Positions 3,001 to 51,386 of a stretch of DNA of 64,000 nucleotides are shown here, piece after piece; the stretch's first letter is position 1, and the number at the start of each line of letters is the position of its first letter. Source of the DNA: Flavobacteriales bacterium (lineage in GTDB: Bacteria > Bacteroidota > Bacteroidia > Flavobacteriales > Schleiferiaceae). Under the pieces are notes generated by a model. The model was not told the DNA's origin and searched no databases. It saw only the letters and a program-made list of their open reading frames with translations. Both the position numbers and the translations under genes were made by a program. Where the stretch lies: positions 868,001 to 932,000 of the forward strand of contig CP051243.1 of assembly GCA_017795025.1 (NCBI GenBank), in the 5' to 3' direction.

Positions 3001-4740
3001 GTGGAGGTCGAAATCGGGCATACGACCTTTAAAAATCACCTGGTTGTTTATTAGAATTTCATAAAAAGATTCAGCTCGCACATCATTAGGTCGAACCGTA
3101 AACCACTCTTCGTAATGACGAACTTCCTTTTCATTCTGATAAGACCAATTTTCGTCCCGAACATCATCTTCTAGACCAATGGCTCCAAAGCGAAGTTCTA
3201 TATCCTCAAAGCTTAATCCAGCGGCGCTAAGGGCAGCGGCAGTTGCGGAAAATCCTTGATAAGCACCAGTTCCCTTGATACCCGCATTAACATTGGGTTT
3301 AAGGTTCTCATAATCACTACTAGCTAAATAATAGTAGGCCGTATCTATAGAAATAATTGGCCAGTTTCCCGGTACTACATGACCCCTGTTCTGAGGTTCT
3401 AAAGCATTATTGGTCTGGGTATTAAAGCCCACAGCGCCATACTTCTTATTTCCCAAACCTTCAATTCCGATATAGGAACCGACCGGATTTAGGGAATCAT
3501 AGTACCAGCGTTCTATACCGTGCTCACAACTAATCCAGATTTCATTTTCGTAGAAGGTCATTGCCTGGTAACGCGATGGAGCGAGGGTACCATTATTATT
3601 GTACTGTATGGCGGATTGCTTAAATCCAAATAAATGGTATGTGGCGGGGTCCCCATTATAGGTGGTTGGTACCTGATACATCGCTTTATAAGCGTTTACC
3701 TCAGCTCCGTTTATCCCTAAAGTCCATAAAGCTGTATCCGGATCGAGATAAAGCTTACGGGTAAAATCCGGCAAGTTGGTGTAGATATGGTCGAAGGTGT
3801 AGCCTGGGTGGGACCAACCACGCACAAAATCGGCAATCTGATGGAGTTGATGCAAGGACCAATTACTGTTATCAATATAATACAAACCACCTCCATCAGA
3901 ACTCACATAAACTCGGTTTTGACCATCTCTTAAAGCGCGAATATTTGCAGGAGCATAGTAAGCTTGAGTGGCATTGTACCAAGGGGCATCCAAATGAGAC
4001 CAATACTCCCAAACATTGGTTAGTGGGGTGTACACGCGTAAGAGGGACCTATCATTTGTGAGGTTAGTGATATGCCCGGTAAGCAAAAGAATTCGATTAT
4101 TGGCATCATAGTCAAGCTCAAATACTCTTTTACTTGTGTGCGGATTACCATGCGCGCCAAAATTTACCACCGGAGGATTAAAAGTGCTAAACTGACCATT
4201 GTTGGCATCGAGTTTAATTAGTCCTTCCTCACAACCAAACCAAATATGACCATAGCCGTCTTCTACCATAGTATGAACCGCACCTTTATTTGGAAAGTTG
4301 TTTAACGAGATATGCCGGGCACTAAAAACACCATTATGATAGATCAGCAGCGGCGGGGCATTATTCATGTCAGAAGTATTTCCCGCTTTCGGTAGAAACC
4401 AGATACTGCCACTACTGGTCTGATAAATTTTATTAACGCTAAAAGAGCTCCATTGGTAAGCAGAGCCCCCCACGGTTATTACCGGAAGTCCCGTATTTGT
4501 AAAAGGATAATCCCAGTTTCCATTGGGCAAGCGCCGACTTATGGGCTTACCATTTAAACTTGGACTACTAAAAAACTGGTGGCCTACCCATAAAGTGCCA
4601 TCAGACTCCATCAATATATCGCTACATCCATTATTGCCGAGGCCATTGGCCGTAGTGAAGGTTTCAAGGGCATTATGTTGGCCCCAAAGAATGCTTACGT
4701 TTATAAGAATCAGCAGTTTTAGGATACTAAACTTATTCAT
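1..4740 (-). CDS. Giant secreted surface protein, propeller plus beta-helix (3' end outside window)
   Basis: The frame starts at ATG 4740 and stays open for 1580 codons to the window edge; I read it in stretches and saw no stop. It begins with a signal peptide (hydrophobic run ending ILWGQ). Residues up to about 400 hold propeller-like repeats such as TLWVG and GSIWF, as in two-component-regulator propellers. From about residue 670 the text YTIGQSINADYGSFEAAV opens a right-handed beta-helix region with many N-rich turns (NNEV, NNIIV, NNQI) and a NPLNW repeat module. The fragment resembles extracellular T9SS cargo, in which a sorting domain would be expected beyond the left edge. Function unknown; adhesion or polysaccharide contact is inference. 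The small plus-strand frames opposite it look like shadows. Confidence 0.85.
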   Translation of the reverse strand, partial: MNKFSILKLLILINVSILWGQHNALETFTTANGLGNNGCSDILMESDGTLWVGHQFFSSPSLNGKPISRRLPNGNWDYPFTNTGLPVITVGGSAYQWSSFSVNKIYQTSSGSIWFLPKAGNTSDMNNAPPLLIYHNGVFSARHISLNNFPNKGAVHTMVEDGYGHIWFGCEEGLIKLDANNGQFSTFNPPVVNFGAHGNPHTSKRVFELDYDANNRILLLTGHITNLTNDRSLLRVYTPLTNVWEYWSHLDAPWYNATQAYYAPANIRALRDGQNRVYVSSDGGGLYYIDNSNWSLHQLHQIADFVRGWSHPGYTFDHIYTNLPDFTRKLYLDPDTALWTLGINGAEVNAYKAMYQVPTTYNGDPATYHLFGFKQSAIQYNNNGTLAPSRYQAMTFYENEIWISCEHGIERWYYDSLNPVGSYIGIEGLGNKKYGAVGFNTQTNNALEPQNRGHVVPGNWPIISIDTAYYYLASSDYENLKPNVNAGIKGTGAYQGFSATAAALSAAGLSFEDIELRFGAIGLEDDVRDENWSYQNEKEVRHYEEWFTVRPNDVRAESFYEILINNQVIFKGRMPDFDLHIAYNRYGYLFDSIGGFSDPCPLIPYPNITDPSALSIKDSLLADIDGKSIRFVFRTIQTALDESIRTADRRGGLYQIFDAYLSKVDTVVEEAPLPMCGNYTIGQSINADYGSFEAAVRDIHRRGIVCDVNFYVGKGSYVEQLEFGTYEGMNQFQVSFLGNGSGAELSYSPSHADSNYVLHISSTANLRFVDLEFTNTQANYGRVFWMDGSCPRFELDSCQVSGLSNAPNNTNAIKARYALLTCNDCDDAKIRHNRFTNGSHGIDAAGSRIKVAFNEFEGQTGTAIDLNNGSEIQVLNNLILGPAGGNFNGIVSSGYPFTIANNQIINSTANCINAIYSASFSAGNSNQPAKIWNNEVSVNSSFGYGAGISVSCGFVSLYYNSINVLGNNSNFVGLQNFYAPNTWQARNNIIVNPNGVCFYTSRADVNQSFADSDYNLFYSSSASPFQTQSGFNAAVNIADLAAFQTASSKDANSLFLDPQFIGNDHLLPMNPAANGQGIGLANIQDRLGRDRPPLNPDQGCYEFDGVAWTGAAGSQWNNPLNWSDTKVPTRSSKVFVSPQNNHPIIDASVEVQDFVLHRDAQMRIRANAGLRVDSLLENSGSIILEADTNGSYARLIQGEITGGGIIRQEGVLRAADTSIRWFHLGVPVRTKVRDLANPQTFINAGANGGSIYFWNASSGQWECPSDTASFLEPGIGYAVAAGENAFGNFLVDDFPATIDVSGDLRAADSLFHLNLSYTSQPQFNTYVSQINDGWNFLANPYHAVYDMQGQSIPGSYKTVYVWNGTTYKQYNTQLDIGDLEARYLAPLQGFFIRTDSAQSLNGFSFDPNQRSLSHQQVVQKKGKQQFSLSVVSEKGSQKDALHILVDSRAQIQFEEEWDAAKLKNAAEHLNFYSLAIDKPVAINSLPESALSQGLKIGFEASKTGFYSIRLSADATQAYTCLLEDKLLDQFHLLDKGVYRFHHQVSNLPERFVLFALPQRIGLKDNLNGTSYWFIDDDAIV

Positions 4741-4920
4741 AGTGGGTTGATTTACAGTCCAAAACAACTAATCCTACCCCTGTGATTTCAGACAGTTTAG
4801 AAAGTGGTTTTACTTTTTTAGAATTCGGTTGGCCTTCGAAAGAATTTGGTATTCGACTAAGATTGCTGTCCGAAAGAGATTTTCTTTGCTGTGCTAATTG
4901 AAGGCTACCCCTCAGCAGAG

Positions 4921-5817
4921 ATGTTCCAAATCTTGAAAAGATTATTCCGTACCAAAGTTTTACATGCCATTGTGCTTGGGCAGATAATAATTAATATCCC
5001 CATTCTCCTCTTTCACTTTGGAGGAATCCCCTTTATAATCGAACTACAGCTAGCTTGGTATTGGAAGTTACTTTTGGTACTACTGCAGCTGGGTATTGGT
5101 TTTGTAATTTCTCTTCGCTATTGGCAGTTTATGATTACCCGCTGGCGTTTAAAGGCCTTTTCTATGGTAAAGCAAGACGATTGGTTACTGCTAAAAGATT
5201 GGGCAAAACGCAGCTATTTATTGCATGAAGATGGCTCAGCTTGGGATGATTTGGAGAGAAGAACCGCTGGGGAGCATGAGGTCCTATCGGAAATAGAGGA
5301 GCTTTTACAACATTTTGAGATTATGGAGCTCGACAAGTTAAACCTTGAGTTTCCTTGGCGAATAGAATATCGAATTAAAAAGGGGGATGCCATTTTGGAA
5401 CTCAGCCTGCGTCTTCTTTTTGGTGTTTTTGGTATCTACATGTGCTTTCAAGAACAATGGTTTTTAGGTCCCCTCATTTTACTTGTTATCCTGATCCTCG
5501 GCAATAAACCGGCTTTTTATAAATATGCCTTCTCGCGCCAAGCGGTCTTAGGCCTCAGTGAAAATGGCTTCGATTTATTACTTCCTCACAAGATTTATAT
5601 CCCCTGGTCGGAAGTGGTAGAGATCCAATTCCACTTTCAAAACCCCGAAATAGAAATTCATTTTTATCAATCTGGTAAAAGGTCGAAAGTCAATATTAAA
5701 CTGGGAACTTATGCCATTCCAGCACCGCGAGATTTTTTACGCTTAGTTCAGGTGTATTGGTATCGTTACTCCAATTACGCCGATAAACTAAGGCAAGAGT
5801 CTGCTTCCTCAAATTAG
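4921..5817 (+). CDS. Membrane protein with YcxB/PH-like C-terminal domain
   Basis: The product is about 298 residues. I start it at ATG 4921 (MFQILKRLF), not at the in-frame GTG 4891, because the hydrophobic segments follow the ATG directly. Two membrane segments lie at about residues 13-32 and 42-62. A charged cytoplasmic stretch follows, then another hydrophobic pair near 160-195. The C-terminus (LSENGFDLLLPHKIYIPWSEVVEI onward) resembles the YcxB-type PH-like fold, where a Trp in a PWSEV context is common. The role is unknown. It lies 44 bases before a three-gene cluster on the same strand and may be cotranscribed with it. Confidence 0.65.
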   Translation: MFQILKRLFRTKVLHAIVLGQIIINIPILLFHFGGIPFIIELQLAWYWKLLLVLLQLGIGFVISLRYWQFMITRWRLKAFSMVKQDDWLLLKDWAKRSYLLHEDGSAWDDLERRTAGEHEVLSEIEELLQHFEIMELDKLNLEFPWRIEYRIKKGDAILELSLRLLFGVFGIYMCFQEQWFLGPLILLVILILGNKPAFYKYAFSRQAVLGLSENGFDLLLPHKIYIPWSEVVEIQFHFQNPEIEIHFYQSGKRSKVNIKLGTYAIPAPRDFLRLVQVYWYRYSNYADKLRQESASSN

Positions 5818-5861
5818 CTCTTGCCTAGTGTTGCAGGACCAAGCCTTTCGTAACTTGCAGT

Positions 5862-6311
5862 ATGAAACTTGCTAAATCATCCCAAGATTTTAAGAAGTCC
5901 AAAGAAGCCAAAGTTTGGCTAAAACTGGAAGCCTTGCTGGCCGAAATCGAAAACCGAGATCTAACCGAAAGTCTTCGGACAGAGCTTAATGGAATAATAA
6001 ACAGCTTAAACGACCATTTCCCATCGGAAAAGGAACAGGTTAAAGCGGCGCAAAAATCGTATCATTATCTATTAAAACAGCTGGAAAAGGAAATGAATTT
6101 AGTGGCTAAGAATCATCACCGTACGCGATGGTTGGCTTTGGGGATGACCGTCTTCGGAATCCCCATCGGTATCGCCCTTTCATCTTCCTTGCAAAACATG
6201 AGCTTTATTGGAATTGGTTTACCGATTGGCCTCGCGGTAGGAATTGCCGTGGGAAGTAATCTCGATCAGCAAGCGGCTAAGGAAAATCGGCAATTAAATA
6301 TTGATCTATGA
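5862..6311 (+). CDS. Hypothetical two-helix membrane protein
   Basis: This encodes 149 residues that I do not recognise. The first 85 residues are charged and helical (KSKEAKVW, EKEQVKAAQKSYHYLLKQLEKEMNL) and look like a soluble coiled or bundled domain. Two hydrophobic, glycine-rich segments follow at about 90-110 and 113-132 (GIGLPIGLAVGIAVGSN), then a short charged tail. Its stop overlaps the start of the next gene in ATGA, so the two are very probably translationally coupled. Function cannot be assigned. Confidence 0.7.
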   Translation: MKLAKSSQDFKKSKEAKVWLKLEALLAEIENRDLTESLRTELNGIINSLNDHFPSEKEQVKAAQKSYHYLLKQLEKEMNLVAKNHHRTRWLALGMTVFGIPIGIALSSSLQNMSFIGIGLPIGLAVGIAVGSNLDQQAAKENRQLNIDL

Positions 6312-44902: not shown

Positions 44903-46306
44903 TTATTCAAATAAAACCCCCGCGGCAGCCCTTAACTTGGCTTGCACAAACTTCCATTTGGCCTCGGTTTGAATCAGCTTTAAGCGACTGTCAATGTATT
45001 TTAGTTCCCGAGAGTTCACTAAAAACAGAGAACTTTCACCGTTGCGAAACTTTACGTTTTCCGCATCTAAAAGGCGTTTGTAATTAGCTACCATTTGACG
45101 GGCGCTTTGCAGCTGACTGCCTACTAAGCCGGCTTCCGCTTCTAAGGCTTCCACCTTATTTTGGATTTCCAAACGCTTGAGCTCTAACTCCAATTCACTC
45201 TCCTGAATTTTAAGTTCCGATTTTAAAACTTCACCGCGTCCTTTGCGTAAAAACAGCGGGAAACTGGCCTTTACGCCCCAAGTGTAATTATCGGGGGAAT
45301 ACTCGGCGAAGAAATCGTTTTGAGTAGGCTGATTTAAAAACTTGTAATTCACGGTAAGCTCCGGCTTGAGCTGTTCAATATTTAAGCGGCGGTCAATATC
45401 CAAACGATCAATCTTTAGGCGGTAGGCATTAAGAGCCGGATGATTTTCGAACCAATTCGCGGGCAAAGGAGCCAGACCAGCGCCTAAGTCAAACTCGGGA
45501 TAAACTGAATCGGCCACCTGCAGAGGAATGGTGCCATCCATCCATAAATAGGTGTTTAAGGTATTGCGACGAGTAATAAGTTCGGCCTTAGCCGCTTGGT
45601 ATTTAATATCTCGATCTTGAACTTGTATGGCCGACTCTAAAGTATCGATCAAGGGTTTGTCGCCAATTATCGCCTGACGTTTAATCCCTTCAAAGCGAAA
45701 TTTAGCCTGCAATAAGGCCTCCTGGTATACCTTATACTCTTGATAGGCGGCATACCAATCCCAATAAGCGCCCAAGGCATCCTCCAGCAATTGGTTGAGT
45801 GCCAAATCAATTTCAAAGGCGGCTGCTTCTTCTAAGAGGCGGGCTTGCTTTATGGCGGCCCGACGTTCGTCGATAAACAATCCCTGACCTAAGGTCCAGC
45901 TTACATCACCGTACCATAAGCCACTGGCGGGCACCGTATTTTGGTTATTCAAGTAAATACCATCATTTAACTCGTAACCCGCCTTAGCTTTAAGACCAAA
46001 CCATGCTGGGATTTCCAATCCTGAGTTTTGTAAGGTGTAGTACTCGTTCTCTTTAAAGCGCTTCTGACTCACATCACTAAAAAGCTTGGGGTCAAAATTC
46101 CCACTAGCTTTTAAGCGCGCTGCACGGGCTTGTTCTTTAATTAAGCGCGCCTTTTGCGCCAAAGGATGATGTCGCTCCACAATGCTTAGGAAAGTGTCTA
46201 CAGGCAAAGCACTAGGCGGGGCAGGGGTAGATTGCCCATCTGCCGAAAGGCCTAAAGCCAATAACACGACTATGAGGGCTAGTCTATTTCTTAGCTTTCG
46301 ACTCAT
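44903..46306 (-). CDS. TolC-family outer membrane efflux protein
   Basis: The product is about 467 residues from ATG 46306 (MSRKLRNRLALIVVLLALGLSADGQ, a clear signal peptide). The longer frame to 46444 runs into the preceding gene. The long coiled-coil helices and paired EYKVYQEALLQAKFRFEGIKRQA / LDAENVKFRNGESSLFLVNSREL repeats are characteristic of TolC-type channels. It overlaps the HlyD gene by 23 bases, and the two are cotranscribed. It is the expected outer membrane exit of the ABC exporter. Confidence 0.88.
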   Translation of the reverse strand: MSRKLRNRLALIVVLLALGLSADGQSTPAPPSALPVDTFLSIVERHHPLAQKARLIKEQARAARLKASGNFDPKLFSDVSQKRFKENEYYTLQNSGLEIPAWFGLKAKAGYELNDGIYLNNQNTVPASGLWYGDVSWTLGQGLFIDERRAAIKQARLLEEAAAFEIDLALNQLLEDALGAYWDWYAAYQEYKVYQEALLQAKFRFEGIKRQAIIGDKPLIDTLESAIQVQDRDIKYQAAKAELITRRNTLNTYLWMDGTIPLQVADSVYPEFDLGAGLAPLPANWFENHPALNAYRLKIDRLDIDRRLNIEQLKPELTVNYKFLNQPTQNDFFAEYSPDNYTWGVKASFPLFLRKGRGEVLKSELKIQESELELELKRLEIQNKVEALEAEAGLVGSQLQSARQMVANYKRLLDAENVKFRNGESSLFLVNSRELKYIDSRLKLIQTEAKWKFVQAKLRAAAGVLFE

Positions 46307-47657
46307 CCTTAGCAGTTTTTGCGTCGTTTTCAGGAAGGTAGAAGTCGGCCGGGAAACCATTAATCTGTCGCCAGATTTCGTACCATACTTGTACATCATT
46401 AAGTAAGGCGAAGGTTTTAGCTCCGGCCCCCGGACGAATTCCATCGGGCCATGGCTCGGACTCAGGGTCGGGAGATACTAAAATGCGATACATGCCATTT
46501 TCGGAAGTAAAATTGTCGATAGCGACAATGCGACCGCCAAAGGTACCTACGGAAACGCCCGGCCATCCGCTAAAGAAAATCGCAGGCCAGCCATCAAACT
46601 GAATGCGGACTTCTTCGCCTACGTGCATTAAAGGATAGTTAAGCGGACGTACATACATCTCGATGGCCAATTCGTAATCGGCCGGCATGATGGTTACAAT
46701 TTGCTCGCCTTCCTTAACCGTTTCGCCAATACCCGTTTTTACGGCGCGGGTAATGTAGCCGTCTTGGGGTGCGGTAAGGTAATACTGACTGGTCCGCATG
46801 GCGTAGTTACTATATTGGTTCTCCAATTTTGTAACCTCTGCCTCAGTCCCATACATTGAGCTTAATGTGGCAAAACGCTCGCTTTCAGCTTTAGAGATCT
46901 TGCTCTCATAATCGGCGGCTATCGCATTAAGCTCTACTTGGGCGTTAATTAACTCATTGCGGGCGGCTAGGAGCTTACTTTCTTGTGCCACTCGTTTAGC
47001 GGTGGTCTCCTGCAGTTTTTGCCGACGTTTTTCCAAGTCGGTACGCGAGTATAAACCTTGATTAAATAGCGTGTCCATCCGCTGCATCTGCGCCTTGGCG
47101 ATATCCTCATTGGTTTGCGCCGCTACCAAATCGATAGAGTCGGCCACTACCTTTAAGCGACTGATCTTAATTTTGTTTTGGGCCTGCTGCCGTTTTAAGC
47201 GCAAATTCTCGCGTAAGGCTCTAACTTGTGTTTCAAGTGCCCGCGCTTTTTGATCGTAGTTCTCCTGGGAGTTCTTTTTCGATTTTATCTGCGCATCGGT
47301 ACGCTCTAAAAGTCGGGGATCGAAATATTCATTTTTCGTTTCCGAGATGTACAGCAGGGTGTCGCCTTTGCGTACAAAATCGCCTTCGCCCACGTACCAT
47401 TTCTCAATTCTACCCCCAATTACCGATTGTAAGGTTTGGGGTCTTTTTTCGGGCTCCAGAGAGGTCACAAAGCCTTTAGAACGAATATTTTGCGTCCAAG
47501 GCAGGAATAGGAAGCCTATCATAATCGCAAAGAAAATAAGGTAAAGGCGTTTGCGACTTTTTCGTAAACGAGCCTCATCGAGAAACACGCGCATACTCGA
47601 AAAGCTGCGGCGGTTAATCTTCTCCGCCACGGTATTTTTAGGCGATATATTTAGCAT
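46284..47657 (-). CDS. HlyD-family periplasmic adaptor protein
   Basis: The product is 457 residues. One membrane helix lies near residues 38-56 (LYLIFFAIMIGFLFLPW). The lipoyl-like halves flank a long coiled coil (IGGRIEKWYVGEGDFVRKGDTLLYI; DGYITRAVKTGIGETVKEGEQIVTI; KARALETQVRALRENLRLKRQQ). A beta-barrel follows, with RIQFDGWPAIFFSGWPG. It links the ABC inner membrane protein to the TolC channel. It overlaps the ABC gene by seven bases and the TolC gene by 23. Confidence 0.9.
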   Translation of the reverse strand: MLNISPKNTVAEKINRRSFSSMRVFLDEARLRKSRKRLYLIFFAIMIGFLFLPWTQNIRSKGFVTSLEPEKRPQTLQSVIGGRIEKWYVGEGDFVRKGDTLLYISETKNEYFDPRLLERTDAQIKSKKNSQENYDQKARALETQVRALRENLRLKRQQAQNKIKISRLKVVADSIDLVAAQTNEDIAKAQMQRMDTLFNQGLYSRTDLEKRRQKLQETTAKRVAQESKLLAARNELINAQVELNAIAADYESKISKAESERFATLSSMYGTEAEVTKLENQYSNYAMRTSQYYLTAPQDGYITRAVKTGIGETVKEGEQIVTIMPADYELAIEMYVRPLNYPLMHVGEEVRIQFDGWPAIFFSGWPGVSVGTFGGRIVAIDNFTSENGMYRILVSPDPESEPWPDGIRPGAGAKTFALLNDVQVWYEIWRQINGFPADFYLPENDAKTAKDESKAKK

Positions 47658-49357
47658 GGCAGATCGTTTTTAAGTTCTTCATAAGTACCCTGCTTTACAA
47701 TGCGGCCACCTTCTAAGATGATAATGCGGTCCATTCGTTTAAGGGAAGCTTGGTTGCAAGTAGCCATAATAACCGATTGTCCACAGTCGAAGCACAGATG
47801 GTCAAGCCAACGCGCCCGGGTAGCTTCATCCACATCAAACCAATTGTCTTCCAACAATAATAAACTGTGCGTACCGGCCAAGCTACGCGCCATAAGTAAA
47901 CGGTTCCGTGTGCTGCTAGCTAAGCCTAAGCCACCGGTAGGCAATTTGGTGTAAATGCCTTTCGGCAGATCCTCAATAAAATCCTTAAGTCCCACTAAGT
48001 CTAGGAGTTGCAGGACTTGTTCCTCCGTTACACTTTCCCGACGTAATCCGATATTATCGAGAATGGAAGCCTCGAAAATTTCTTCCTGACGAAGATTATC
48101 GCCAATTAAGCTGCGTAAACCTTCCAGTTTTATTTTGGCGTAAGGAATATTGTTATACAAAATGCTACCCTCGTAACTGTCGAATAAACCAGCAATTAAC
48201 TGCAAGAGAGAGGATTTTCCGGAGGACATCGCGCCGGTAATTCCAATTTTCTCTCCATGATTGATTTCAAGATTGAGATCACTTAGGATCCGATGGCCCC
48301 ATTGTGGAGAATTAAGATTCAAGTTTTTGATTTTCACATTTAAACGCGAACCGTTTTCCAAATCAATCTGATCGTCCTCTTCGTGATTCTCCAGTTCTAA
48401 ATCGGTAACCTTACCCAGTTTCTCCAGGCCGGTTAGTACATCGTATATGGTTTCGATGCTATACACCAGTTTCTCTACCGAAGAAATAATTTGCACAATT
48501 ACAATTTCGGCGGCTACAAACTGACCAATGTTCATTTGCTGATCAAATACGAGGAGACCACCTAATAAAAGCAAGCCCCCGGCAATGAGCACCTTAAAGA
48601 ATATAAGGGAAGAGTACTGACGTACTAAAACCGAGAAGTGGGAACGACGAGAGCGTAGGTATTTAGAGCTCAGGCGATCGGCCTGCACCATCGGTAAGTC
48701 TGTTTTCCCTGCCATCTTAAAGGTGGAGAGGTTACGACCCAATTCTTCTAACCAAGAAACAACCTCATACTTATTGTTACTTTCTTCTAAGCTGGTTTCT
48801 AATCCTCGGCGCGAAGTGAGACGGAAGAAAATAAGCAGCACGAAAATGAGGAAGAAGCCAAAGGCAATAAAGAAGGGGTGGTAGAGGGAGAGTAGAATTA
48901 ATCCGAACAAAATTTGCAAACTGGCCACCGAAAAGTCGAAAAGCAGTTTGTACAATCCCTTTTGGACCGTGAGTACATCAAAAAACCGGTTGATTAATTC
49001 CGGTGGATAGTAATTTTTAAGGGCGCTGAGCTTTATGCGTGGTATACGGTAAGCAAATTCTATGGAGGCGTTTACAAATAAGCGCTGTTGAATGCGTTCC
49101 GCTACGCTCAGCTGAAAGATTTGAAAAATACCCGCAAGCGCCAAGCCCACTAATACCACGATAACCAAAACAACCCAGGCGGTGGAGGTGGTGCCACTTT
49201 GGATTAAGTTGATAATCGCCTGAATACCAAGGGGTATAGAGAGCGAAAGTAAACCGTTAAATAGCGCATAAACGTAGATATTACCAATATCCTTACGCTC
49301 GGTGGCGAGCAGCTTCCAAAAACGCTGCAATGGAAGTTTAGGATCTTTTAGTGCCAT
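47651..49357 (-). CDS. ABC exporter (fused membrane and ATPase domains) with degenerate ATPase motifs
   Basis: The product is 568 residues: five or six membrane helices (about 20-305), then a nucleotide-binding domain. Walker A is intact (GAMSSGKS, Lys381) and the Q-loop Gln is present (LRQEEIF). The signature is LASSTRNR where LSGGQRQR is normal (about 479). Walker B reads LLLLEDNWFD where D-E is normal (Glu503-Asp504), and the switch histidine is a cysteine (ATCNQAS, Cys534). No peptidase C39 domain is present. It forms an operon with the TetR, HlyD and TolC genes. Whether it hydrolyses ATP is uncertain; see findings. Confidence 0.9.
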   Translation of the reverse strand: MALKDPKLPLQRFWKLLATERKDIGNIYVYALFNGLLSLSIPLGIQAIINLIQSGTTSTAWVVLVIVVLVGLALAGIFQIFQLSVAERIQQRLFVNASIEFAYRIPRIKLSALKNYYPPELINRFFDVLTVQKGLYKLLFDFSVASLQILFGLILLSLYHPFFIAFGFFLIFVLLIFFRLTSRRGLETSLEESNNKYEVVSWLEELGRNLSTFKMAGKTDLPMVQADRLSSKYLRSRRSHFSVLVRQYSSLIFFKVLIAGGLLLLGGLLVFDQQMNIGQFVAAEIVIVQIISSVEKLVYSIETIYDVLTGLEKLGKVTDLELENHEEDDQIDLENGSRLNVKIKNLNLNSPQWGHRILSDLNLEINHGEKIGITGAMSSGKSSLLQLIAGLFDSYEGSILYNNIPYAKIKLEGLRSLIGDNLRQEEIFEASILDNIGLRRESVTEEQVLQLLDLVGLKDFIEDLPKGIYTKLPTGGLGLASSTRNRLLMARSLAGTHSLLLLEDNWFDVDEATRARWLDHLCFDCGQSVIMATCNQASLKRMDRIIILEGGRIVKQGTYEELKNDLPC

Positions 49358-50030
49358 AGTTCAGTATACTGGATGTCATGGTTTCGATAAATTGAATCAA
49401 CTGCTCGTCTTTACGTTCACAGTCGGTAATGGAAGGCATATGCTCCCCAAAGAATTTTTGCAAGTGATTGGCTTCTAAAAGCGTAGAGGCCAAGGTACGA
49501 GGATGTTTGAAATCTGGATTAATATCACTAATAATGCGCACCAAGCGCTCAATAAGGTTTTTGTAATTCTGGAAGTAGCCATTCTTGTTTTCTAGATCCA
49601 CTTCCTTGGTTAAAAAGGTCTTGGAGGATTCAGAAATCACAATCCGCTGCAACAATTCTTCATTTATATGCGAAAAGTTTTGGTCTTGCTTTACGGTTTC
49701 GCAAATAGCTGTAATACAATTACGGAGCTGGTCTTCGCTGGTGGCCACATTAGCCGTTGCAAAAGCCACCCGATACTCTAGCCAGGCCCAATACCAAGAA
49801 ATTAAGTAAAGAAGAAGTTTGTGTTTGTTTTCAAAGTACCGATAGATCGTACTTTCTGGGGAGCCAATGGCAGCTCCTAACTTCTTGAAGGTGAAGCTCT
49901 CAAACCCCAAGTCATCAATTAGAATGATGCTTTGTTCTACAATGCGCTTCCCTAAGTCAGAACTTTCGGGGTCCTTCACAAAGAGCTGCTCCGGAATTTG
50001 AATCTTTAAATTACTTAGTAGTTCTCGCAT
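49338..50030 (-). CDS. TetR/AcrR-family transcriptional regulator
   Basis: The product is 230 residues. The HTH spans about 28-75: IVEQSIILIDDLGFESFTFKKLGAAIGSPESTIYRYFENKHKLLLYLI, typical of TetR (recognition helix SPESTIYRYF). The remaining helices form a ligand domain with no recognisable ligand. It overlaps the ABC gene by 20 bases and is first in the export operon, so it probably controls its own operon. A 13-base dyad lies in its promoter at 50057-50069. Confidence 0.9.
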   Translation of the reverse strand: MRELLSNLKIQIPEQLFVKDPESSDLGKRIVEQSIILIDDLGFESFTFKKLGAAIGSPESTIYRYFENKHKLLLYLISWYWAWLEYRVAFATANVATSEDQLRNCITAICETVKQDQNFSHINEELLQRIVISESSKTFLTKEVDLENKNGYFQNYKNLIERLVRIISDINPDFKHPRTLASTLLEANHLQKFFGEHMPSITDCERKDEQLIQFIETMTSSILNYGTKRS

Positions 50031-50144: not shown

Positions 50145-51386
50145 ATGGACCTCTTTTCCATTTTCGCGGCTCTAGCCACTCTGGCAGCGCTTTTTGCTTA
50201 TATCAACACCCGTTATTTAAAATTGCCATTTACCATTGGACTGATGGTTTTGGCCATGGGCTTTACCTTAATCGTAATGGCCTTAGGTTCTATGTTCCCT
50301 CTAATATTGAAGGATGCCAAAGCCATTTTGCTGGGGCTCGATTTTAAATCCTTGCTATTAGATGTAATGCTGAGTTTCTTGCTTTTTGCGGGAGCCTTGC
50401 ATACTAAGTTGGATGCCTTGCAAAGGAATAGAGGCCCGATATTGATGCTGGCCACCTTGGGCGTGGTTCTATCCGCTTTTCTTATTGGAGGCATGGTTTA
50501 TGGCTTATTGCTTTTGGTTGGTAACCCTATCGACTTTTTATACTGTTTACTCTTTGGTTCTTTGTTAGCCCCAACCGATCCCATCGCCGTGCTGAGTATT
50601 TTAAAGGAAGCCAAGGCCCCAAAAAATTTGGAGGTTAAAATTGTGGGCGAGTCTTTATTTAATGATGGTGTAGGCGTAGTGGTTTTCTTGGCTTTATTTT
50701 CCTTAGCCAAAAGCGGTGCGGAGGATATCCATTTTAATGAAATCGCCTTCCTTTTCCTAGAAGAAGTAGGGGGTGGTATTGCTCTAGGCTTGGCCGGTGG
50801 TTATTTAGCCTTTCGGCTGATGCGTACCATCAATCACTATGAAACGGAGGTTATGATCACCTTGGCCTTAGTGATGGGTTTATACACCTTAGCCTCGTCC
50901 TTGCATTTTAGCGGACCTTTAGCAGTGGTGGTTGCCGGCTTGTTTATTGGCAATCGTTCGCCCAAAGCGGCTTGGAGCGCCGATACTCAAAGTTATATCG
51001 ACAAGTTTTGGGAGTTATTGGATGTCTTACTCAATGCGATACTTTTTGTATTAATTGGCCTCGAGTTGTTGGTGGTCGATTGGGACGGACTCTATCTTAT
51101 TTTAGGCCTAGCAGCGATTCCCATTTCCTTATTGGCGCGGTATTTAGCGGTTTTAGGTCCGGTGGAGTTTTATAAAAAACGATTAGAGTTTGTTCCTAAA
51201 ACGGCCTTCCTCCTTACTTGGGGCGGCATCCGAGGTGGTATCTCCATTGCCTTGGCCCTTAGTTTAGAACCGAGCATGCACCGCGACCTATTTCTTACTA
51301 TGGCCTATATCGTGGTGGTCTTTGCTATCGTAGTGCAAGGCTTAAGTTTGGGACCGGTTTTAAAGAAACTTCTGGCGAAAGCCTAA
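50145..51386 (+). CDS. CPA1-type cation:proton antiporter
   Basis: The product is 413 residues with about twelve membrane helices. It has [48 protein letters not shown], the NhaP-type ion-binding core with Asp/Asn pairs. The later [24 protein letters not shown] is also conserved. It exchanges Na+ or K+ for H+. It is divergent from the tetR-led export operon and shares the 50031-50144 gap with it. Confidence 0.92.

Follow-up and report, generated by a model that had tools for sequence, protein, structure and literature searches.

The window analysed here is a stretch of 64,000 nucleotides from a Flavobacteriales bacterium of the family Schleiferiaceae (contig CP051243.1, positions 868,001 to 932,000), and it carries on its minus strand an operon in which one gene encodes a half transporter with the fold of an ATP-binding cassette (ABC) exporter. 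The gene order TetR-ABC-HlyD-TolC was confirmed, with the ABC gene second and its ends overlapping its neighbours, as was the position of that gene (47651-49357) given in a first-pass annotation of the same DNA. The encoded protein joins a transmembrane domain (TMD) to a degenerate nucleotide-binding domain (NBD), and the features on which the analysis depends are the following, all on the minus strand.

47651..49357, minus strand: ABC-exporter-fold half transporter with a degenerate NBD, 568 amino acids (Pfam ABC_membrane and ABC_tran, structure model)
48398..49333, minus strand: TMD, residues about 9-320, the strongly conserved part (family alignment, model)
47666..48340, minus strand: degenerate NBD, residues about 340-564 (Pfam, model, alignment)
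48209..48235, minus strand: Walker A GAMSSGKSS (375-383), Lys381 retained (alignment)
48089..48091, minus strand: Q-loop position, Arg423 in place of Gln (Gln in 34/34 outgroup sequences)
47900..47923, minus strand: signature position, LASSTRNR (479-486) (alignment)
47846..47863, minus strand: Walker B strand LLLLED (499-504), E503-D504 in place of D-E (alignment)
47756..47758, minus strand: switch position, Cys534 in place of His (alignment)
48506..48508, minus strand: Glu284 in transmembrane helix (TM) 6, candidate proton-coupling residue (family conservation)
48878..48880, minus strand: His160 in the TM3-TM4 turn, conserved in the family and not seen in the outgroup (family conservation)
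48713..48736, minus strand: coupling helix 2 region with Arg208 (208-215), altered in relatives that consist of the TMD only (alignment, model)

The motif columns were anchored by 34 canonical outgroup exporters (Q423 in 34/34, D503 in 34/34, E504 in 33/34 and H534 in 34/34), which had been chosen by their P-loop and S-x-G-[EQ] signature, so that these two motifs are fixed by construction. In this alignment the window protein has Walker A and is without the canonical signature, the catalytic Glu, the switch His and the Q-loop Gln; the A-loop Tyr of 32/34 outgroup sequences is Ser350. The LASSTRNR signature, the E-D Walker B pair and Cys534 reported by the first-pass annotation are thus all present, and its statement that Walker A keeps Lys381 stands. 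Its statement that the Q-loop is kept does not, as the outgroup Gln aligns with Arg423 and the Gln that had been noted is the next residue. Close homologs do not carry a normal LSGGQ, D-E and His at these sites: five of them (L014-L018, 81-89% identical to the window protein) have the same LASSTRNR and LEDNWFD, and for this reason a local mutation or an assembly or sequencing error was ruled out. Only Cys534 is particular to the window protein among its close relatives, L014-L018 having Asn. The idea of a degenerate motor therefore gains strong support from the alignments, in which the motif changes are shared by close homologs and extend across the family.

The family is widespread in Bacteroidota. 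The first 80 loci were gathered by query peptide patterns, one of them on Walker B, which biases this set towards query-like motifs; a full-length profile made with 30 of these loci (E ≤ 1e-60) found a member in 99/392 sampled genomes of the phylum. Four family-level surveys found members in 66/151, 139/150, 101/120 and 35/81 genomes, and the first three of these gave, by reading of the rows, 24, 52 and 25 matches of TMD-only shape. For comparison of motifs, 236 rows scored above 250 bits with a TMD profile, and removal of six truncated sequences, three partial or frame-split ones (L218, L258, L280) and two duplicates (L095, L213) left 225; the same cut-off also removed L139, the P-loop-less L221-L223 and L247, whose gene lies in two frames. 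Class membership was adjusted by hand, in that L024 and L253 (D-E, no His) were moved to the degenerate class and L138 and L140 to the near-canonical one, while L137 of the basal clade stayed degenerate. A search of the open-access PubMed Central (PMC) literature found no published description of this family.

Over all 178 NBD-bearing members, Ser480, Gly482, Glu504 and His534 occur together in two (3/182 when L139 and L221-L223 are added). In the largest class, the degenerate one (n=164), Lys381 is present in 164, an acid at 503 in 143, Glu504 in 22, Gln at 422-423 in nine, Ser480 with Gly482 in eight and His at 533-535 in one; none joins Glu504 and Ser480 with Gly482 to His534, although this class was defined with D503, E504 and His534 and the missing full set is partly by construction, which does not apply to the count over all 178. 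The eight near-canonical members have D-E in 8/8, His in 6/8, the signature Ser/Gly in 2/8 and the Q-loop Gln in 0/8, and L139, below the cut-off, is the most canonical member of the family (LSTGQ, D-E and His). Some members (L131-L134 and L141-L143) carry an N-terminal extension of about 150-260 amino acids; no Pfam match to such extensions was found at E ≤ 0.01 among the five sequences scanned (L131, L133, L141, L142 and L139, the last without a real extension).

The distribution of sequence constraint within these proteins is also inverted. The half of an ordinary ABC exporter that is conserved is its NBD, and the outgroup conforms to this, with mean identities of 0.263 for the TMD vs 0.460 for the NBD and a higher TMD value in 0.5% of 190 pairs (about 1/190). 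The degenerate class has 0.554 for the TMD vs 0.343 for the NBD, the TMD being higher in 3000/3000 sampled pairs, and the near-canonical members have 0.544 vs 0.425 (27/28 pairs). In substitution rates, the median ratio of NBD to TMD nonsynonymous divergence (dN) is 1.85 in 421 degenerate pairs, 1.06 in three near-canonical pairs and 0.75 in 52 outgroup pairs; synonymous divergence (dS) is saturated in the pairs of the window gene itself.

In other branches the decay has gone further. The P-loop is gone or altered in the clade L155/L211/L212/L214/L215 (support 1.0), in L254 (Lys to Arg), in L286 of Aureibacter and in L221-L223. The whole NBD is absent from 47 checked sequences of three families, which end 2-10 amino acids past the TMD profile; in 47/47 loci HlyD and TolC genes come next on the same strand. 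These TMD-only sequences make up a single clade (support 1.0) that lies within the degenerate class, which by parsimony corresponds to one loss, and adjoin members from Rhabdobacter, Arundinibacter, Persicitalea, Telluribacter and Runella, the support for the sister group being 0.78. The tree is a single FastTree run, in which the near-canonical clade has support of 0.93 and the Bacteroidota family 0.97, whereas the node parting near-canonical members from the rest (0.48) is weak. Several loci deserve mention in their own right: L221-L223, from the family of genome G045, form a distant P-loop-less branch that adjoins HlyD and retains Glu284; in L258 (genome G607, 3846-6040) the TMD and the NBD lie in two overlapping frames, as though a frame break had recently parted the domains, and the gene of L247 (genome G681) is likewise split over two frames. 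Some genomes hold multiple copies, namely G593 (L269-L271), where a full-length degenerate member accompanies two TMD-only ones, G561 with one of each kind, and G655 (L262-L263) with two TMD-only members.

Relatives are found on plasmids as well, including those of a second phylum. The TMD-only protein L129 as a query retrieved 18 plasmid records. The Sphingomonadales copies have no P-loop in 10/10 cases, and their TMD identity exceeds that of the NBD in 45/45 pairs; the eight annotated records show an adaptor gene and then TolC after it, the adaptor being of the HlyD family ('biotin/lipoyl-binding' in L287). Because tree support for joining Sphingomonadales with Bacteroidota is only 0.37, the link rests on residues that both share and that are rare in the outgroup, i.e. 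F94, N123, F126, K133, H160, K196, Q279 and E284. The operon of L287 (1362-3914), on a Sphingobium plasmid, lies after a DUF2309 gene and before a divergent LysR-type regulator. A related gene with 38% identity to the TMD-only query, and with the annotation ABC transporter ATP-binding protein, is present on four Riemerella anatipestifer plasmids (H4-H7).

Within the TMD, one acidic residue stands out. Glu284 in TM6 is present in 162/164 degenerate members (the other two have Asp), in 47/47 TMD-only and 8/8 near-canonical members and in 6/6 of a further group, as well as in 10/10 Sphingomonadales copies, L139 and L221-L223, compared with 3% of the outgroup. No other charged residue is retained by every group within the TM cores, the limits of which are approximate and were set by hand.

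The models, both of monomers, are consistent with an exporter fold. That of the window protein (predicted local distance difference test score, pLDDT, of 85.4) shows the NBD, six long TM helices and, at 210-215, a coupling helix; its best whole-chain Foldseek match was TmrAB 6rai_B (query-normalised TM-score, TMq, 0.88), and HlyB 8dck gave a TMq of 0.90. The model of the TMD-only L129 (pLDDT 84.0) has the TMD fold of ABC exporters and aligned with TmrAB (Z 26.9, root-mean-square deviation, rmsd, 2.7 over 321 residues) and HlyB (Z 26.9, rmsd 3.7 over 326 residues). In Pfam, the window protein matched ABC_membrane (28.8 bits vs a cut-off of 28) and ABC_tran only at E ≤ 0.001, SbmA_BacA and a peptidase domain not being found; L129 and L126 matched ABC_membrane only (E ≤ 0.01), with no match to SbmA_BacA. 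Among NCBIfam exporter models (best 25 of 146), the highest score, 190.6 bits to TIGR03796, compares with a cut-off of 853.3, and the other 24 are also below theirs. SbmA structures were absent from the best 50 matches that VIA-align and Foldseek each listed for the L129 model, which excludes nothing.

The remaining genes of the operon were assigned by family search.

49338..50030, minus strand: TetR-family regulator, first gene of the operon
46284..47657, minus strand: HlyD-family periplasmic adaptor, 457 amino acids, overlapping the end of the ABC gene
44903..46444, minus strand: TolC-family outer membrane factor, the open reading frame (ORF) opening at 46444

For the TolC-family gene the likelier true start, judged from its signal-peptide-like sequence, would be the Met at about 46306. 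HlyD is present in 216/227 family loci and TolC in 162/227, many of these loci being truncated at their flanks. At 50145-51386 on the plus strand, and divergent from the TetR gene, lies a membrane protein resembling a cation:proton antiporter, as judged from the ORF alone. The neighbours were also considered as a clue to the substrate and gave nothing usable, recurrent flanking genes outside the operon being confined to subsets of loci.

Taken with the loss of motifs and of whole domains, these observations suggest that in most of the family the NBD is probably no longer a hydrolysing motor. The protein would form the inner-membrane part of a tripartite exporter of ABC fold, HlyD and TolC, in which the TMD homodimer would transport by alternating access. 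Energy would most likely come from the proton gradient, with Glu284, perhaps together with His160, as the protonatable site; it has two precedents, namely SbmA, and MsbA-MD, an NBD-less truncation for which the excerpted text of PMC4979069 reports proton-coupled transport. In the window branch ATP binding by the NBD has probably persisted, in the role of a sensor or clamp, and a regulatory part for it is suggested there because the P-loop is strictly conserved; in other branches the P-loop is lost or the NBD absent. That transport no longer needs hydrolysis by the protein's own NBD and is probably driven by protons is a reading to which we give about an even chance. The proton gradient fits best as the source of energy, and it is a third option next to the two that the first-pass annotation had offered, i.e. 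a regulated or very slow ATPase and co-operation with another ATPase.

Several observations weigh against proton drive. The membrane core, within its approximate limits, seems to hold a single conserved acid and not a ladder of six Glu. Its presence in 8/8 near-canonical members means, on this distribution, that Glu284 predates NBD loss and did not arise with it; likewise, YddA already has some of the SbmA-ladder glutamates according to the excerpted text of PMC13316013. His160 is absent in 2/8 near-canonical members and in L139. The near-canonical members are already inverted in their conservation, which on the identities given above places part of the inversion before motif loss. Lys381 in 164/164 degenerate members indicates that nucleotide binding still matters in the window branch, intracellular loop 1 (ICL1) is still conserved in TMD-only proteins (0.64), and the genomes of the latter hold 14-34 other ABC NBD matches each at 1e-15, which could act in trans.

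The last two points bear on a rather unlikely alternative, in which a gene elsewhere supplies a canonical ABC half-transporter or ATPase in place of the NBD, either for a heterodimer or for a hexamer of mixed composition on the HlyD ring. Exporters that are heterodimers and have one of their sites degenerate are familiar (PMC7756269, in excerpt), many generic ABC exporters occur in TMD-only genomes, and ICL1 is a likely contact of the NBD. However, the operon has a single ABC gene and no paired half-transporter gene, and its own genome has no second family member, the next best matches having 21-26% identity over long spans. No orphan NBD of the family was recognisable in 20 TMD-only genomes searched with the family NBD profile: their best matches (E 1e-51 to 3e-44) were full-length generic exporters of at least 588 amino acids, and the best matches in four genomes with NBD-bearing members had E 3e-66 to 6e-94. 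Candidate orphan NBDs near TMD-only genes were rejected, the profile matches at L236 and L241 being an ABC-F-like protein (a name based on our own reading of the sequence) and that at L129 a distant, unrelated ABC NBD. In addition, pairwise identity in the coupling-helix-2 region (205-222) is down to 0.34 in TMD-only proteins (whole TMD 0.61) vs 0.46 in the degenerate class (TMD 0.56), and Arg208, found in 96% of that class, remains in five TMD-only sequences. The suggestion that the protein works with another ATPase is therefore unsupported by the operon, the genome or an orphan NBD.

Binding of ATP without effective hydrolysis might itself drive or gate transport, by a binding power stroke or as a gated facilitator down a substrate gradient, and this is unlikely without being negligible. 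The strict P-loop of the degenerate class favours it, and a precedent exists in the long-lived ATP at degenerate sites (PMC7756269, in excerpt), but members that lack the P-loop or the NBD have the same operon and cannot work in this way, so that the family would need two mechanisms. The first-pass annotation had proposed a slow or regulated ATPase, and a true ATPase of this kind is improbable: the canonical residues that persist in part of the degenerate class, namely Glu504, the acid at 503 and Ser480 with Gly482, speak for it, yet they are combined with His534 in 0/164, the window gene lacks Glu504, Ser480 with Gly482 and His534 alike, the NBD evolves faster than the TMD, and relatives without P-loop or whole NBD retain the operon. 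Lastly, NBD erosion and the split genes of G607 and G681 might be taken as signs of a dead or dying operon, which is hardly credible in view of a TMD strongly constrained at every depth of the family, reading frames that stay open, partner genes that are intact and a TMD-only clade that extends over three families with a median dN/dS of 0.211 (63 pairs).

Tentatively, and with a little less than even confidence, the proton-driven reading can be extended to a series over two phyla, from a near-canonical ABC exporter, by way of forms that only bind ATP and forms that lack the P-loop, to a proton-driven exporter that is free of the NBD and still docks on HlyD and TolC. A primary pump would here have turned secondary, separately from SbmA, with its intermediates alive and coupling probably at a single membrane Glu. 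The route by which primary pumps driven by ATP become secondary is an open question, for which SbmA represents the end point and YddA an inferred start; in the present family many stages of decay coexist with an unchanged operon, which makes each step testable side by side. If the reading is true, a considerable number of Bacteroidota and Sphingomonadales proteins that carry the annotation 'ABC transporter ATP-binding protein' are unlikely to be ATPases, and HlyD/TolC conduits can serve an ABC fold without a motor.

Several known systems resemble the family in part. Type I secretion, PCAT and NHLM exporters, such as HlyB and PCAT1, are alike in fold and in their HlyD and TolC partners, but the present family has lost the NBD motifs and falls far below the NCBIfam cut-offs among the models listed. 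TmrAB, TM287/288 and TAP share the degenerate Walker B, signature and switch; their partner, however, supplies one consensus site, and the window operon has no partner gene. MsbA-MD and LmrA-MD, NBD-less ABC exporter TMDs for which proton-coupled transport has been reported (PMC4979069, in excerpt), are laboratory truncations, whereas the NBD loss described here is natural and was checked in 47 sequences. A further parallel is with SbmA/BacA (SbmA-like peptide transporters, SLiPT): SbmA is described in the excerpted text of PMC13316013 as proton-coupled and derived from a full ABC transporter, and the two groups have in common an ABC-exporter TMD fold without a working NBD, full-ABC ancestry, a conserved membrane Glu and a proposed proton drive. 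On the other hand, SbmA/BacA have no NBD, while the window protein keeps a degenerate one and only the 47 TMD-only relatives are without; the family seems to have one conserved core Glu in place of the six-residue ladder of SbmA, and its TMD-only model lacks the TM0 helices. It also sits with HlyD and TolC, presumably exports, and retains surviving intermediate stages of NBD decay, so that it is best read as separate from SbmA/BacA though working alike.

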